This document shows, in pieces, positions 14,336 to 25,783 of a stretch of 33,020 bases of DNA. Source of the DNA: an archaeon (GTDB lineage Archaea > Thermoproteota > Thermoprotei > Thermofilales > JAPDKD01). The stretch lies in assembly GCA_029258735.1 (NCBI GenBank), contig JAPDKD010000036.1, positions 1-33,020 on the forward strand. Direction: 5' to 3'. Each line of letters starts with the position of its first letter. Positions within the stretch are counted from its first letter, which is position 1. A program made the translations under genes and the position numbers. The notes below the pieces were generated by a model. The model was given only the letters and a program-made list of their open reading frames with translations. It made no database searches and was not told the DNA's origin.

Positions 14336-14860
14336 ATGTCTATAAAACCACGTTCTAAAGAGCCTAAAACACCGCTAGAAGAAAATAATATGTTCAGAGG
14401 ACTTAAAAGAGCACCACATAATCTCATCGAGGCTCTACGCCGAGTTCAAGCGCGATACGGCTACTTGCCTCCTGAGGGTATAAAACAGGCTGCAGAATAC
14501 GTGGGGGTTCCTTTCTCACAAGCCTATAGCGTAGCAACCTTCTATCACCAATACAGCCTCGAGCCAGTAGGTAAATACCGGATATTAGTATGCATGGGCA
14601 CTGCCTGTCATCTCAGAGGCAACGACTTAAACTTCGAATTCTTACGCATGCTACTAGGCCTTAAAGAAGGCCAAAAAACAACCAAAGACGGCTTGTTCTC
14701 GTTAGAAGTTGCCAGATGCTTCGGATGTTGCGGCCTGGCCCCCGTAGTAGTTATCGAAAAACCAGATGGAACCAGGCAAATAATCGGAAACGCTAACGCC
14801 CGCGTACTCAGGGCAGCGATAATCAAATATAGAAGACAGGAAGCGGGTGGGAACGAATGA
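14336..14860 (+). CDS. hydC: NuoE/HydC-like [2Fe-2S] subunit of the hydrogenase complex
   Basis: A 174-residue protein. An N-terminal helical region (about 25-75) precedes a thioredoxin-like [2Fe-2S] domain with ligands C86, C91, C128 and C132 (CMGTAC and CFGCCGLAP). This is the NuoE/HoxE/HydC family, the electron-carrying partner of the flavin subunit. First gene of the five-gene operon; its stop overlaps the next start by 4 nt (ATGA). The gene name follows bifurcating hydrogenase nomenclature. Because it is linked to hydrogenase genes and no membrane complex-I subunits are nearby, it is a soluble diaphorase component rather than part of a respiratory complex I. Confidence 0.9.
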   Translation: MSIKPRSKEPKTPLEENNMFRGLKRAPHNLIEALRRVQARYGYLPPEGIKQAAEYVGVPFSQAYSVATFYHQYSLEPVGKYRILVCMGTACHLRGNDLNFEFLRMLLGLKEGQKTTKDGLFSLEVARCFGCCGLAPVVVIEKPDGTRQIIGNANARVLRAAIIKYRRQEAGGNE

Positions 14861-16857
14861 GCTGGACGCTGCTCGACAAATGCTGTGAAAAATGTACCCA
14901 CTCTTTAGACAATCCTTGTCCCGACTACATAGAGTGCAGAGTTAACGGACCCCTATGTCATTCCGACAAAAAGTGCAAAGAGCTGCGAAAGAAGAGGCTG
15001 GAAGAAATCCAGTACGGCGCGGTGGGCGCGAAAATAAAGATACCATTATCCAGCTGTACGCTTGCAAGCGGCGCCGAAAACATATACGAAGCAGTGAAGG
15101 ACTACGTAGAAAAGAATGGGCTCAAAATATCAATAAGCATCTCAGGTTGCTTCGGGCTAGACTTCCTAGACCCATGGATAGAGTTTACTTCCAAAGGTAT
15201 GCCTACAGCCATCTACGCTAACGTAAAGCCCAAAGACATTCCGCGCCTAATAAAGGAGTATTTTGAAGAACACGACGTAAGCAGCGCATATGTTCTGAAA
15301 AACAAAACTGGCAAGGCGAAAGGCGAGGACAAAGTACCCCTGCTCGATGAACTAGACGTTTGGAAGAAGCAATACAGGTGGGTGTCTAGAAACTGCGGAA
15401 TAGTCAACCCCGAGTCCCTGGAAGAATATATAGCCACAGGAGGCTATAGAGGACTAAGCCGAAGCCTAAAAATGAGCCCCGAACAAGTCATAGATGAGAT
15501 ACTGAAAAGCGGGCTTCGGGGCAGAGGCGGAGCTGGCTTCCCCACGGGAATCAAGTGGAGAATAACCAGAGAGCAGAAAGTCACGCCGAAATATGTCGTA
15601 GCCAACGCTGACGAAGGAGACCCCGGAGCATTCATGAACAGGCTCCTCGCCGAATCCGACCCCTTCAGAATAATAGAGGGACTAACAATAGCGGGCTACG
15701 CGATAGGAGCCAACCAAGGATACATCTTCGTGAGAGCAGAAAAGCCCCTAATGGCTAGCAGACTCCAAAAAGCCGTAGAAGAAGCGAGAAAATACGGCCT
15801 ACTAGGAAAAAACATACTAGGCTCAGGATTTGACTTCGACATCGAAGTCATACTGAGCGCTGGCGCCTTCGTATGCGGAGAAGAAACCGCGCTTCTAGCA
15901 GCCATCGAGGGTCGAAGAGCCTGGCCGAGGCAAAGGCCACCCTACCCCGCGCAGAAGGGGTTGTGGGGTAAGCCGACAGCCATAAACAACGTAGAAACAC
16001 TTGCACATGTAGCCACGATAATGGCCGAAGGAGCAGAAGCGTTCGCTTCTGTAGGGACCGAGAAGACAAAAGGCACAAAAATGTTCTGCGTAACAGGCTC
16101 CGTAAAAAGACCCGGAGTCTACGAAGTACCAGTCGGAACCAGCATTAGATACCTAGTAGAAGAATTGGCTGGAGGAGCAGTCGAAGGCAGCGCAATCAAG
16201 GCGGTCCAGATAGGTGGCCCCTCTGGTGGCTGCATACCCGCATCAAAGCTAGACCTGCCCCTCGACTACGAAACCCTGCAAAGCGCTGGCGCCATAATGG
16301 GCTCAGGTGGCATAGTCGTAATTAACGATAAAAACTGCATGGTGGATGTTGCAAAATTCTTCTTAACATTCACTTCTGCAGAGTCGTGCGGCAAATGCTT
16401 CCCCTGCCGAGTTGGGCTTAAAATACTGTGGGATATCCTAGACAAAATTACAAGAGGTCAAGGAACAGAGGAAGACCTAGTAGTGCTTAGGCACGTTGCA
16501 AACACAGTAAAATACGCAAGTCTCTGCGCGCTTGGAGGAACCGCTCCTAATCCCGTATTGTCAACTCTTAGATATTTCATGGATGAATATGAAGCACACA
16601 TAAAGGATAAGACATGCCCAGCGAAGGTGTGCAAAGCTCTAATCACCTACACTATTAACGAGGATAAATGCATAGCCTGCGGGCAATGCGCAGCAAACTG
16701 CCCCGTTAACGCGATATCCAAGCAGGAAAGCGGCAAGTATTCGATAGACGTAGACAAGTGCATTAGATGCGGGACCTGCTATGTTGTTTGTCCAGTTGGC
16801 GCTGTAGAGAAGCATAGTAGAGGGAGAAGAAGGAGCGGGGGTGAAATGAAATGGTAA
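14857..16857 (+). CDS. hydB: NuoF/HydB-like flavin subunit, NAD(P)-linked, with C-terminal ferredoxin domain
   Basis: A 666-residue protein close in layout to HydB of bifurcating hydrogenases. It has a Cys-rich N-terminal extension (Cys at 9, 10, 13, 21, 27, 34, 40), a degenerate thioredoxin-like domain (about 58-140), the FMN/NAD(P)H domain with GRGGAGFP (222-229) and GAFVCGEETALL (336-347), the N3-type [4Fe-4S] site C511/C514/C517/C557, and two [4Fe-4S] clusters in a C-terminal ferredoxin domain (C605-C615 and C635-C645). It should exchange electrons between NAD(P)(H), FMN and the Fe-S chain. The thioredoxin-like domain keeps only C67 and C98 of the usual four [2Fe-2S] ligands. It overlaps the next gene by 7 nt. 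Confidence 0.93.
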   Translation: MSWTLLDKCCEKCTHSLDNPCPDYIECRVNGPLCHSDKKCKELRKKRLEEIQYGAVGAKIKIPLSSCTLASGAENIYEAVKDYVEKNGLKISISISGCFGLDFLDPWIEFTSKGMPTAIYANVKPKDIPRLIKEYFEEHDVSSAYVLKNKTGKAKGEDKVPLLDELDVWKKQYRWVSRNCGIVNPESLEEYIATGGYRGLSRSLKMSPEQVIDEILKSGLRGRGGAGFPTGIKWRITREQKVTPKYVVANADEGDPGAFMNRLLAESDPFRIIEGLTIAGYAIGANQGYIFVRAEKPLMASRLQKAVEEARKYGLLGKNILGSGFDFDIEVILSAGAFVCGEETALLAAIEGRRAWPRQRPPYPAQKGLWGKPTAINNVETLAHVATIMAEGAEAFASVGTEKTKGTKMFCVTGSVKRPGVYEVPVGTSIRYLVEELAGGAVEGSAIKAVQIGGPSGGCIPASKLDLPLDYETLQSAGAIMGSGGIVVINDKNCMVDVAKFFLTFTSAESCGKCFPCRVGLKILWDILDKITRGQGTEEDLVVLRHVANTVKYASLCALGGTAPNPVLSTLRYFMDEYEAHIKDKTCPAKVCKALITYTINEDKCIACGQCAANCPVNAISKQESGKYSIDVDKCIRCGTCYVVCPVGAVEKHSRGRRRSGGEMKW

Positions 16858-17513
16858 ACGTAAAACTTGATGGTGTGGAAGTTGAAGTAGAACCAGGCAC
16901 AACCGTACTTGAAGCTGCTAAGAAGGCGGGTATTGAAATACCGCATCTCTGCACCTTAAAAGACCTATACAATGGTGCAAGCTGCAGGCTATGCCTAGTA
17001 AAAACCACGCGCGGCAAGCTGGTCCCAGCCTGCGCATACCAAGTCTATAGGGACGAGGAGTTCACAGTAAACTCTCTGGAATTGAAGAGAATAAGGAAAG
17101 TAAACTTTGAGCTCCTCCTGTCGTTTCATAAAATCGAATGCTGGAAATGCGAGAGAAAAGGCGACTGTCTCCTAGCCAGCCTTTCGCAAGAACTAGGAGT
17201 TGAAGGAATACCTGTGTGCTCGCAGTGCCCGCTGCCACCAGAGGAATGCTTGCTAACCAAGGGGATACTGTGCCTAGGCATGATAACAAGCTCCGGCTGT
17301 GACGCCGAATGCATAACGAGCGGTGGACAGTGCTGGGGATGCAGAGGGCCGATAACCAGAAGGGACGTCCTTGAGAGGGCGTTCAAGCGGTATGAGGAGC
17401 TAGGCTTTAACATCGACGACGTCCTATTCCGAGCTGAGATTTTCTGGAATTCTGTTCCCGCGTTTGAGAAGCTGAAAAAGGTAGCTGCTGAGGTGAGAGG
17501 TGGGAAGAAGTGA
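16851..17513 (+). CDS. Chimera A: HydA/HoxU N-terminal Fe-S domains joined to a [NiFe] small-subunit C-terminal cluster domain
   Basis: A 220-residue protein built of two origins. Residues 1-110 match the start of HydA/HoxU/NuoG: a [2Fe-2S] domain (C34, C45, C48, C61) and a His-Cys3 [4Fe-4S] site (H93, C97, C100, C106). Instead of the two ferredoxin clusters expected next, residues 121-170 read like the C-terminal medial/distal cluster segment of group 3 [NiFe] small subunits: PVCSQC, LCLGMITSSGCDAEC and CWGCRGP (Cys 123, 126, 133, 141, 150, 154, 161, 164). A helical tail follows. The strong SD GGGGGTGA precedes the ATG, and it overlaps the large-subunit start by 4 nt. It probably links the diaphorase to the NiFe module. 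The fusion reading rests on motif order, not alignment. Confidence 0.82.
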   Translation: MVNVKLDGVEVEVEPGTTVLEAAKKAGIEIPHLCTLKDLYNGASCRLCLVKTTRGKLVPACAYQVYRDEEFTVNSLELKRIRKVNFELLLSFHKIECWKCERKGDCLLASLSQELGVEGIPVCSQCPLPPEECLLTKGILCLGMITSSGCDAECITSGGQCWGCRGPITRRDVLERAFKRYEELGFNIDDVLFRAEIFWNSVPAFEKLKKVAAEVRGGKK

Positions 17514-18799
17514 AAAGCTTCTATATAGAGTTTGGAATAGAAGAGGTACCCGCAGTAGCGGGCAGGCTGGATATCTACGTTAAAGGCGACGAAGTCTCAG
17601 TCAAGGTGCGGTTCGGAGTCCTACAAGACCCCCGATTCTTCGAAAAATTCGTAAAAAAGAGGGACCCGATAGAAGTCCCCTATATGATGTCCAGAATATG
17701 CGGAGTCTGTAGCGTAGTTCACCTCACGTGCTCTACAATGGCGATAGAGAAAGCCATGGGAATCAAGCCGGAAGAAAACTCCCTAAAAATAAGAGAAATA
17801 GCAAAGGGCATGGAAATTTTACAAAACAACCTTATTCACGTTCTAATGTCAATACCAGACTTCACGGGCACGAAAAACGCACTAGAATTCTCCAAGAAAT
17901 ATCCAAACATATTCTCGAAAATAATGGAACTAAACACTAGAACTCTAGACGTCTACAGAAGAATAGGAGGAAGATTTATACATACACCCAGCATTGGCGC
18001 AGCATTTCACGGAAAGCCAATCTACAGGTACGAGCTTGAAGGCATAAGCAGGGAGCTCTCTAACCTATCGGAGGAGCTCCATTCTCTAGCTTACGAACTC
18101 GCAGAAATATGGAAGCCCCTAGCTCCCGGCTTTAAAGATCCCGTTCCGTCGTACTGTGTCCTGCAGGCCGATGACGGCTACCCGTTTTTCAGCGAAAAAC
18201 TCCTCTTCTCCGACGGTCAAGTAGTTCCAGCCGAAAAATACTACGAAACAATAGAAGAGCTGAAAATCGAATACTCCAACGCTCACTACACGCTATATAA
18301 GGGGAAGCCCTTCTACACCGGCTCCAGAGCCCGGTTACAAGCCTACTCTCACTTGCTCACTGATAGGACGAGGGAGGTAATTAAACTCTTAAAAATAGAC
18401 TATGATAATCCCTTTGAGAACGTTAAAGCACAATACGCTGAGGCGGTTCAAGTAACAGAGGTCCTTGCCCAAGTTGCTGCCGAGCTAGCCGCAAAAGTCA
18501 AACACAGCATTAAACCATTCTATCTGGAAAGGAGGAAAGACTGCACAGGCGAAGGTATAGCATTTGCCACCGCTCCTAGGGGTACTCTCATACATCACTA
18601 CCGTATAAGAAATGGAAAAATGGACTACGCCAACGTTATCACGCCGACCGTAATGAACGCTAGACACGTAGAAGTAAACGGCGAAGCGCTTATACGATGG
18701 CTCGCTAGCTCTGGCCAGCCAGACGAGGAAGAAGTGAAGCCGATTATAGCCGCGCTTCTCAGGGCATATGATCCGTGCCTTCCATGCGCAGTTCACTGA
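17510..18799 (+). CDS. hydL: [NiFe] hydrogenase large (catalytic) subunit, group 3-like
   Basis: A 429-residue protein carrying the Ni-Fe active site: RICGVC with following His (R62-C67, H71) near the N-terminus and DPCLPCAVH at the very end (C423, C426, H429). All four Ni ligands (C64, C67, C423, C426) are present. The protein stops at the His that is normally exposed only after a protease removes a C-terminal extension, so it appears ready without that step. No signal peptide is visible, so the enzyme is cytoplasmic. The start is GTG at 17510, overlapping the previous stop by 4 nt with AGAGGTGGG upstream. Its partners indicate a soluble NAD(P)-linked enzyme, comparable to HydABCSL or HoxEFUYH complexes. 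Confidence 0.95.
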   Translation: MKSFYIEFGIEEVPAVAGRLDIYVKGDEVSVKVRFGVLQDPRFFEKFVKKRDPIEVPYMMSRICGVCSVVHLTCSTMAIEKAMGIKPEENSLKIREIAKGMEILQNNLIHVLMSIPDFTGTKNALEFSKKYPNIFSKIMELNTRTLDVYRRIGGRFIHTPSIGAAFHGKPIYRYELEGISRELSNLSEELHSLAYELAEIWKPLAPGFKDPVPSYCVLQADDGYPFFSEKLLFSDGQVVPAEKYYETIEELKIEYSNAHYTLYKGKPFYTGSRARLQAYSHLLTDRTREVIKLLKIDYDNPFENVKAQYAEAVQVTEVLAQVAAELAAKVKHSIKPFYLERRKDCTGEGIAFATAPRGTLIHHYRIRNGKMDYANVITPTVMNARHVEVNGEALIRWLASSGQPDEEEVKPIIAALLRAYDPCLPCAVH

Positions 18800-18809
18800 G
18801 GTGGTGAGA

Positions 18810-20108
18810 ATGAAGGTTGCGTTTTTCTCGTTTGGAGCTTGCGAAGGATGCAGATATAGAATAGTAAACGAGTTCGCCAAGATAGCAACGTTGCTCGAAA
18901 AACACGGGATAGAAATAGTCAGAGAACCTCTACTAGGAGTAAAGACAGAGAAGAACTACGACGTTGCAATAATAGAAGGAGCAGTAACATCGCTAGACGT
19001 AGAAAGAGTTAAAGAAATAAGACGTAAAGCAAAGTTTCTCATAGCCCTTGGAAGCTGCGCCTTTCTAGGCGGTATAGCAACGCTTGGATACAAATATGGA
19101 GTGCAAGCTGATGAATACTTAAAGAAAGGCTATTCTCTCGGCGTTCCCCTGCACCAGATAGTCAAGGTTGATGGCTATGTTAGGGGCTGCCCCGCCTCCG
19201 TCGACGAACTGGTTAACGTCCTAGAGGAAATAGCGGTAACTGGGTCAATATCGAAGTACGAAAGGCGGTTCGAATACGAGAAGCAGACGGATCTCGTGTT
19301 AGATGACGGCTTCCTACGGCTCGACACGGGTAAGTGTATAGTGTGCGGTAGATGTATCGAATTGTGCTCAAAAATCTACGCGAACGTTTTAACGCAGGCA
19401 TTCAGAGGCTACCGCGTAATTGTAACAACCCCAGCTCAAATCAGTTTTCTCGAGGCAGGATGCATTAGATGCGGCCTCTGCGCCGCTTACTGTCCCGTAG
19501 CAGCTATAACGTATAGGAACGACGTAGAAGCTGCGCTGAAAACAGCGAAAAACGGTGGACGGGTCGTTATAGAGCGGCAGGCCGTTGAGGCATTAGCCGA
19601 AGCCTTAGGGATAAAGCCGGGACAGGTAATACCGCTGCTAAAGACTCTTGGCTTCTCTAAGGTGGAGATAGTTAATCCACTTTCCCTTATAGACTTTGAA
19701 AAGACCGGGATAGTGCCCTATAGTTCTGCCGAGAAACGGCTTGTCGAACAGGTGTTCCCCGAGGCCAGCAAATATTTGCTTGAATATCCTAAGCTAAGTC
19801 TAGACAAAGATACAGTATTAGTGACTGTCTGCGTAGCCAGGAAGGAAGATCATTCTCCAGTTCTCACGGTTCACGAGCTGGTGGGCTTGGCCAGAGACAT
19901 GTTGATAACTTTTAAGGATCTGCCCGAAGAACAGCTAGAATCTAAGAACAATGATTGTAACGTTAAAATAGCCAAAGGACCCGAAGAAGTGAAAGCAGCT
20001 ATACGGGACTTTCTCAGCAACCCTAGGGGTATAGTAGTATTACAAATATGTCCAGGAGGCTGCGCGAAAGGCTCAGGCCTGCACTTCCCTATCCTAAATG
20101 ATTATTAA
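18810..20108 (+). CDS. Chimera B: [NiFe] small-subunit N-terminal half fused to a two-[4Fe-4S] domain and a shrunken [FeFe]-hydrogenase H-domain
   Basis: A 432-residue hybrid. Residues 1-145 are the flavodoxin-like part of a [NiFe] small subunit with all four proximal-cluster Cys (C11, C14, C83, C127: CEGC, GSCA, RGCP). Residues 170-235 are the two-[4Fe-4S] domain of HydA-type proteins (C176-C186, C218-C228). Residues 250-432 resemble the H-domain of [FeFe] hydrogenases: ALGIKPGQV then LLKTLGFSKVEIVN, the L2-like VTVCVARKE (C341), TVHELVGLARDMLITFKDLPEEQ, and the L3-like ICPGGCAKGSG (C414, C418). The L1 motif TSCCP is replaced by YSSAE (304-308), so one cluster ligand and the proton-relay Cys are absent. 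The ATG at 18810 has a strong SD (GAGGTGGTGAG). Catalysis by the H-domain is unlikely; an electron-transfer or structural role is inferred. Confidence 0.82.
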   Translation: MKVAFFSFGACEGCRYRIVNEFAKIATLLEKHGIEIVREPLLGVKTEKNYDVAIIEGAVTSLDVERVKEIRRKAKFLIALGSCAFLGGIATLGYKYGVQADEYLKKGYSLGVPLHQIVKVDGYVRGCPASVDELVNVLEEIAVTGSISKYERRFEYEKQTDLVLDDGFLRLDTGKCIVCGRCIELCSKIYANVLTQAFRGYRVIVTTPAQISFLEAGCIRCGLCAAYCPVAAITYRNDVEAALKTAKNGGRVVIERQAVEALAEALGIKPGQVIPLLKTLGFSKVEIVNPLSLIDFEKTGIVPYSSAEKRLVEQVFPEASKYLLEYPKLSLDKDTVLVTVCVARKEDHSPVLTVHELVGLARDMLITFKDLPEEQLESKNNDCNVKIAKGPEEVKAAIRDFLSNPRGIVVLQICPGGCAKGSGLHFPILNDY

Positions 20109-24746: not shown

Positions 24747-25783
24747 ATGAAGGGAAGAATATTGTTGACGCACGGTGCTGGCGGCAAGGAAACAGGGGAG
24801 CTGCTTAACGCCTTGATAGTGTCTAGAATATGGGAGAATCTTAAGCGAGTCGAGGGAGGCTATGGTATAGATGTACTAGACGATGGCGCCACCATACCAC
24901 TGGGCGACGGAAGGCACATGGTGCTATCTATTGATTCTTTCACGGTCAATCCTATCTTCTTCCCAGGCGGAGACATAGGAAAGCTAGCCGCAACAGGCTC
25001 CGTAAATGACGTAGCCGTAATGGGGGCTAAGCCTATAGCGCTCATGGACTCGATAGTCGTAGAGGAAGGCTTCTCCATGGAAGACTTGGAAAAAATAGTC
25101 AAGTCTATGATAGCGGTGCTGAGGAAGAAGGCATAGCCATCATAGGCGGAGACTTCAAGGTAATGCCCAAAGGTCAAATAGACAAAATAGTGATATCCAC
25201 CGTCGCCGTAGGCATAGCTTCTAAACCTATCATAGATAAGCATCTCAAGCCCGGAGACAAAATAATAATCTCAGGAACAGTGGGCGAACACGGAGCAACA
25301 ATAATGGCCCTGCAGCAAGGGCTGGGCATCGAAGCAGGGGAACTGAGAAGCGACTGTCAACCTCTCACTAAGCTTATGCTCCCGCTAGTTGAGAAATATT
25401 CCGACAATATACATGCAGCCCAAGACCCTACGAGAGGAGGAGTAGCCCAAGTTCTAAACGAATGGGCGCAGAAGACGGGGAACATAATCGTGATAGAAGA
25501 AGAAAAAATACCCATACGAGAACCTGTGAGAGCCTACTCTGAGATGCTCGGCGTCGACCCACTCTCCCTGGCATGCGAGGGCCGCGTCCTGCTAGGAGTA
25601 GAACGCGAAGCTGCGGAAAAAGTCTTAAAGTATATTCGAAACCTAGGCTACGTCGATGCAGAGATTATAGGCGAAGTACACGAGCCGAAAAAGCACAAAG
25701 GACTAGTACTAGAGAAAACAATAGCCGGCGGAATAAAAGTTTTAGAACCTCCAAGCGGTGAAATAGTGCCTCGAATATGCTAG
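24747..25783 (+). CDS. hypE: HypE, hydrogenase maturation, interrupted by a -1 frameshift
   Basis: HypE dehydrates the carbamoyl group on its C-terminal Cys to make the cyanide ligand. The N-terminal part (24747-25136) begins MKGRILLTHGAGGKETGELL with ATP-site DDGATIPLGDG, but runs into a stop after MIAVLRKKA. The rest (to 25783) continues in the -1 frame: reading GAG from 25121 gives EEEGIAIIGGDFKV and then an intact HypE end with the essential C-terminal PRIC. One base is missing around 25119-25121 relative to a full gene of about 345 residues. No extra sequence exists to suggest an intron. Sequencing error, true mutation or -1 frameshifting are all possible. Followed by hypC with a 10-nt gap. 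Confidence 0.9.

Follow-up and report, generated by a model that had tools for sequence, protein, structure and literature searches.

The C-terminal domain encoded by the last gene of a hydrogenase operon from a heat-loving archaeon was confirmed to be a shortened [FeFe]-hydrogenase H-domain of HydA descent. In the same protein, here called chimera B, this domain follows the N-terminal domain of a [NiFe] hydrogenase small subunit. We consider it moderately probable that the domain is a maintained remnant of the HydA H-domain in an archaeal enzyme resembling NiFe-HydABCSL, and that it has kept a plain, A5-like [4Fe-4S] cluster. Conservation of the potential cluster-holding residues among related archaea suggests that an ordinary iron-sulfur cluster persists at the former active site. 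The absence of an H-cluster from chimera B is well supported. The presence of the [4Fe-4S] cluster, its ligation by Ser and electron bifurcation by the archaeal enzyme we infer from sequence and by analogy. The window referred to below is the whole stretch of 33,020 nucleotides that was analysed, and the features discussed are collected in Table 1.

Table 1. Features of the hydrogenase operon and of chimera B, with positions in the window
Feature	Position	Strand	Basis or remark
HydC/NuoE-type [2Fe-2S] subunit	14336..14860	+	PF01257, E=2e-38
HydB/NuoF-type NADH/FMN subunit with C-terminal 2x[4Fe-4S]	14857..16857	+	7t2r_B, E=2e-205
Chimera A, HydA N-terminus plus Cys-rich tail of a group 3 NiFe small subunit	16851..17513	+	Homology (see text)
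[NiFe] large subunit, group 3b-like	17510..18799	+	PF00374, E=7e-32
Chimera B residues 1-156, N-terminal domain of a group 3 [NiFe] small subunit	18810..19277	+	PF01058, E=7e-21
Chimera B residues 176-228, 2x[4Fe-4S] ferredoxin-like HydA segment	19335..19493	+	Eight Cys
Chimera B residues 251-432, compact, degenerate H-cluster domain	19560..20105	+	Profile, PF02906, AlphaFold/Foldseek
L1 remnant YSSAE (Y304-S305-S306-A307-E308)	19719..19733	+	Ungapped to the YPEL anchor in HMMER and MAFFT alignments
C341, L2 Cys (TVCVARK vs MPCTAKK)	19830..19832	+	Invariant in 18 archaeal and 23 bacterial sequences
C383, proposed substitute ligand, rejected	19956..19958	+	Cys solely in the window protein
C414 and C418, L3 Cys (CPGGC)	20049..20063	+	Invariant in 18 archaeal and 23 bacterial sequences

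Chimera B lies in a plus-strand frame from 18768 to 20108. The ATG at 18810 (MKVAFFSFGACEGC) is the likely start, giving a protein of 432 residues in which the NiFe small-subunit domain is followed by the 2x[4Fe-4S] segment and then by the C-terminal domain. Nineteen archaeal chimera B proteins were placed in the tree, and 18 were aligned for the conservation counts. In the first domain, the putative ligands of the proximal [4Fe-4S] cluster are C11, C14, C83 and C127. C83 was present in 17 of the 18 homologues and the other three were invariant; the copy in the genome G063 has Asp at the equivalent of C83. The family profile matched residues 4-157 of the delta subunit of P. furiosus sulfhydrogenase 1 with E=7e-38. 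All eight Cys of the ferredoxin-like segment (C176, C179, C182, C186, C218, C221, C224 and C228) were invariant among the 18 archaeal and 23 bacterial relatives.

The Pfam match of the H-domain (Fe_hyd_lg_C, PF02906) in chimera B was faint, with E=0.03. The profile of the 18 homologues matched the HydA structures of T. kivui, A. woodii and T. maritima with E values from 5e-48 to 8e-42, and these matches spanned both the 2x[4Fe-4S] segment and the H-domain. A scan of genome contigs with the single chimera B protein gave no match, whereas a tblastn scan with the family alignment detected dozens of bacterial HydA in genome contigs through residues 172-378. The AlphaFold model had a mean pLDDT of 81, with block means of about 86-96 at residues 231-370 and about 79 at residues 371-390. 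Its top Foldseek matches were HydABC and CpI (E=4e-16 to 1e-14). The G063 homologue scored above the PF02906 cut-off (positions 9-245), which was passed in 5 of the 398 genomes of the phylum sample, G063 among them. Full H-domains are rare in this sample.

The operon comprises five genes, all on the plus strand, with chimera B last. HydB aligned over its full length to HydB of the A. mobile NiFe hydrogenase (7t2r_B), and the alignment covers CALGGTAPNP, HIKDKTCPAKVC and the two C-terminal CxxCxxCxxxCP motifs. It also matched NfnB (9n5u_B, E=9e-207) and T. maritima HydB (7p5h_B, E=4e-186), and it keeps the FMN/NADH core and the region of the 3Cys-1His metal site. Its N-terminal thioredoxin-like part (14857-15180) retains SSCTLASG and GCFGLD; unlike in A. 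mobile and others, Asp stands at the second Cys of GCxGxC. A CCxxC prefix domain (NF040902) stands before this part.

The two genes on either side of the large subunit carry complementary pieces of two proteins. Residues 1-122 of chimera A, with a [2Fe-2S] and a NuoG-type [4Fe-4S] site, matched A. woodii HydA1 5-125 (E=1.5e-23), and residues 120-208 matched sulfhydrogenase 1 delta 160-249 (E=2.5e-10). The NCBIfam assignments were HydA6 over residues 1-121 and ShyD/HydD over the tail. Chimera B has delta 4-157 first and then HydA from residue 123. HydA and the NiFe small subunit have thus exchanged halves. The large subunit between them matched P. furiosus sulfhydrogenase 1 alpha over its full length (E=7e-50), with both CxxC motifs (RICGVC and DPCLPC) and all four Cys intact. 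In the window and in six Thermofilales relatives, the large subunit ends exactly at DPCLPC(A/S)VH and has no cleavable C-terminal extension; other family members are 5-11 residues longer. The minus-strand genes past chimera B are, as we recognise them from their sequences, presumably hypF and hypD. The hypE gene is split over two frames (24747-25136 and 25163-25783), and the frameshift near 25130 could stem from the assembly or be genuine.

Compared with canonical enzymes, the H-domain of chimera B is strongly reduced. The L2-L3 spacing of the window protein is 73 residues, and its archaeal family ranges from 69 to 84; 23 bacterial HydA have 139-156, in agreement with the original prediction that the spacing was roughly halved. 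The L1-L2 spacing is 36 residues versus 55 in the same bacterial set. It had also been proposed that much of the domain is missing. This holds for the stretch between L2 and L3, and the loss can now be narrowed to one specific segment. In the alignment, the deletion is a single segment (SGAG-IFG-TGGV-EAALRT plus VRG) between LTTREL and the GLxNA helix, rather than a general erosion. The deleted stretch contains much of the [2Fe] pocket.

Other features of the active site have also changed. Chimera B ends directly past L3 and the canonical C-terminal extension is missing; within L3, GSG replaces GGG. Thr and Arg stand at the equivalents of CpI Met353 and Lys358, which we take to be functionally relevant positions of the H-domain, and Gln stands at that of Met497. 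Y304 occupies the position of the proton-transfer Cys, where the archaeal family is variable (Y, F, A, K, R and others). The first L1 Cys is missing from the window protein and from most archaeal copies. In CpI, the roles of Cys299 in proton transfer and of Met497 have been described (PMC11376134). The L1 motif TSCCPxW, the full L2 motif MPCxxK and the full L3 motif ExMACxxGCxxGGGxP, all features of [FeFe] catalysis, were not found in chimera B. Since several defining features are missing, the protein is no working [FeFe] hydrogenase.

The residues of the former cluster site were examined for conservation. C341, C414 (codon 20049-20051), C418 (codon 20061-20063) and the L1 sequence YSSAE were all present at the numbering given in the original prediction. 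In the HMMER and MAFFT alignments, S305 (19722-19724) falls at the position of the cubane-ligand Cys of TSCCP. The Cys directly before the Pro of this motif was assigned as the cubane ligand in CpIII (PMC12138974). Ser was found in this column in 17 of the 18 aligned archaeal homologues and Cys in G063, and E308 was kept in 17 of the 18. The Pro after S305 is retained in some archaeal copies (S-P-x-E). In bacterial HydA the equivalent column holds Ser in 12 and Cys in 11 of the 23 sequences, with Ser also in A. woodii HydA1, and it was exclusively Ser or Cys among all 18 archaeal and 23 bacterial sequences. About half of the sampled bacterial HydA carry TSCSP, and the first L1 Cys is invariant there.

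Only 14 of the 182 H-domain columns were conserved in at least 17 of the 18 homologues, mostly in the cluster loops; among them were S305, E308, P317, C341, T353, E356, C414, G417, C418, G421 and G423. The mean column conservation was 0.49 in the H-domain versus 0.66 in the ferredoxin part. This concentration on the cluster loops was read as selection on the cluster pocket. A [4Fe-4S] cluster with a non-Cys fourth ligand, as suggested earlier, still appears likely, and S305, at whose position the basal G063 has Cys, is probably the fourth ligand of such a putative cluster together with C341, C414 and C418. C383, which had been named as a possible substitute ligand, was rejected because it is not conserved; other homologues have N, S, K, E, G, Y, F, A, I or V at this position. 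The S-x-x-E pattern is known as a helix N-cap box. S305 and E308 fit this pattern and a helix begins at residue 306 in the AlphaFold model. The Ser may accordingly have a structural role, with a cluster held by three Cys or no cluster at all. S305 may then be only a helix cap.

The maturases of the H-cluster were searched for in the genomes of the family. HydG had no match in 23 genomes, 19 with chimera B and four with hybrid or full HydA. No HydE was found above the cut-off in 23 genomes, and none matched at all in the genome of the window, which is a MAG of 139 contigs and 85% completeness. No HydF was found above the cut-off in 19 genomes. Matches to the HydF family were generic GTPase G-domains, far below the cut-off in the window genome, and were rejected. 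In each of the maturase searches, 1 of 14 control genomes passed the cut-off. The deletion of the [2Fe] pocket segment, the absence of HydG and the lack of HydE or HydF above the cut-off together argue that there is no H-cluster. With no maturase above the cut-off, the H2 chemistry therefore falls to the NiFe large subunit. The original prediction had named hydEFG in the genome, together with conserved alternative L1 cysteines in close homologues, as signs of a working H-cluster. Neither sign was found: no maturase passed the cut-off in the genomes searched, and the sole homologue with two L1 Cys, that of G063, has them at the canonical positions.

The 19 chimera B copies formed a single clade (support 100/99). 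Within it, G063, whose L1 is Cys-Cys (IIPCCYSAKKFVE), was sister to the 18 Ser305 copies (98/99). With the root placed on the HydA side, this position is consistent with one change from Cys to Ser. Three other genomes of the phylum encode an unswapped HydA of about 550 residues beside whole NiFe small and large subunits. These HydA have the four cubane Cys, lack the first L1 Cys (SAECP/SPACP) and have an L2-L3 spacing of about 131-132. Within the limits of the contigs, 15 of 18 loci shared this operon order. No large-subunit gene lies between the chimeras in G024, G056 and G016. G024 and G056 have open frames for both chimeras, whereas numerous stops and frame changes disrupt the operon of G016. 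In G024 and G016 a large subunit is found elsewhere, with no small subunit within the stretch fetched. The three operons without a large subunit imply that there is no strict link between the fate of the H-domain and a neighbouring NiFe site.

The archaeal enzyme resembles NiFe-HydABCSL of Acetomicrobium mobile (7T2R/7T30) in combining HydA-, HydB- and HydC-type modules with NiFe small and large subunits that retain their metal-ligand Cys. In A. mobile, the H-cluster motif is missing and is 'replaced by the A5 [4Fe-4S] cluster', and electrons pass from the NiFe site through S and HydA to HydB/HydC, reducing NAD and ferredoxin (PMC8880783). The HydA H-cluster is lost in both systems; the [4Fe-4S] cluster is present in A. 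mobile, and in the archaeal protein it is suggested by the conservation of C341, C414, C418 and S305. The likeness between chimera B and A. mobile HydA lies in this loss, whereas the visible shortening of the H-domain is seen here in the archaeal family. The architecture also differs. HydA and HydS are separate whole proteins in A. mobile but cross-fused in the archaeal enzyme, and A. mobile HydS has one cluster whereas the archaeal enzyme retains the small-subunit Cys tail on chimera A. For the archaeal large subunit, the match to 7t2r_D (E=2e-20) was weaker than that to P. furiosus sulfhydrogenase alpha.

Other relatives each match part of the system. The HydABC enzymes (T. kivui 8a6t, A. 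woodii 7q4v and T. maritima 7p5h) are kin of residues 1-122 of chimera A, residues 160-432 of chimera B, and HydB/HydC. Unlike chimera B, these enzymes possess the [2Fe] pocket, the first L1 Cys, the full L2-L3 stretch, the C-terminal domains and the H-cluster. The large subunit and both small-subunit pieces matched P. furiosus sulfhydrogenase I (group 3b; 9nez/9e15) best. This NADPH enzyme does not bifurcate; its delta subunit is whole, and beta/gamma partners take the place of HydBC. Greening et al. in 2024 (Cell 187:3357) reportedly described fused [FeFe]/[NiFe] hydrogenase complexes in several archaeal orders. The chimera loci are very probably hybrids of this type, so that they represent a variant among archaeal hybrids already published.

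These comparisons show that the C-terminal parts of an ancestral HydA and of a NiFe small subunit of group 3 were swapped, giving chimeras A and B, which flank the NiFe large subunit. The H-domain has shed the [2Fe] pocket segment and the proton-transfer Cys, and the H2 chemistry falls to the large subunit. The remaining pocket may bind a plain [4Fe-4S] cluster through C341, C414, C418 and probably S305. Such a cluster would form an A5-like terminus on an A4/A5 branch, with a structural or electron-buffering role. Electrons of NADH and ferredoxin would be bifurcated or confurcated at HydB/HydC, as in A. mobile. A bolder version of this proposal, which we regard as possible but tentative, is that the former H-cluster site was re-tooled once, early in Thermoproteota, into a still-used (Cys)3(Ser)1 [4Fe-4S] electron terminus. 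G063 would be the four-Cys intermediate, the unswapped hybrids would be partly reduced forms, and descendants without the large subunit would work without an operon-borne H2 site.

Several other explanations were considered. That the reading frame is an assembly artefact or a pseudogene of one MAG is hardly credible. The fragmented, incomplete genome and the split hypE frame nearby could raise such a suspicion, but the same protein, with the same length and motifs, is open in 17 other genomes and on one more contig, and the genuine pseudogene copy in G016 is quite different. A working H-cluster with altered L1 chemistry is also very improbable. Three of the Cys are retained, and Ser in L1 is known from bifurcating-type bacterial HydA that keep the first L1 Cys. 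In chimera B that Cys is lost, as are Met353, Met497 and SGAG-IFG-TGGV, and the maturase results in the 23 genomes leave this explanation strongly disfavoured. With the proton-transfer Cys, Met353, Met497, the [2Fe] segment and HydG all missing, the original prediction that a normal H-cluster cannot be bound was borne out.

The H-domain might instead be a structural vestige without a cluster, holding the HydA-derived and small-subunit parts together. The N-cap box would agree with this, and so would the absence of both L1 Cys and of the [2Fe] segment. However, an empty pocket would not be expected to keep C341, C414 and C418 invariant in 18 divergent sequences and S305 in 17, and we regard the vestige as quite unlikely. 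Slightly less doubtful, although still unlikely, is a live second electron port to ferredoxin or another partner, which would couple NADH, ferredoxin or that partner, and H2. The drift of the rest of the H-domain around conserved cluster loops is consistent with such a port. So are the operons without a large subunit in two families, whose chimeras are both open as if used without their own NiFe subunit, and many third substrates have been proposed for the Bfu family (PMC9304861). Against the port, no conserved partner gene was seen beside the domain, and the A5 branch of A. mobile is a terminus off the NiFe path (PMC8880783). Moreover, the genomes without a large subunit in the operon have other NiFe large subunits, which could act in trans.

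Taken together, the full H-domain, the hybrids with four cubane Cys and a slightly shorter L2-L3, the compact four-Cys domain and the Ser305 domain form a graded natural series. The series shows by what steps an H-cluster protein can lose its diiron site and pass H2 chemistry to a NiFe partner, yet keep its electron-transfer frame. The system makes testable the survival of a [4Fe-4S] cluster at a former H-cluster site and the natural replacement of a cubane Cys by Ser, as well as bifurcation by archaeal NiFe enzymes built of chimeras A and B.
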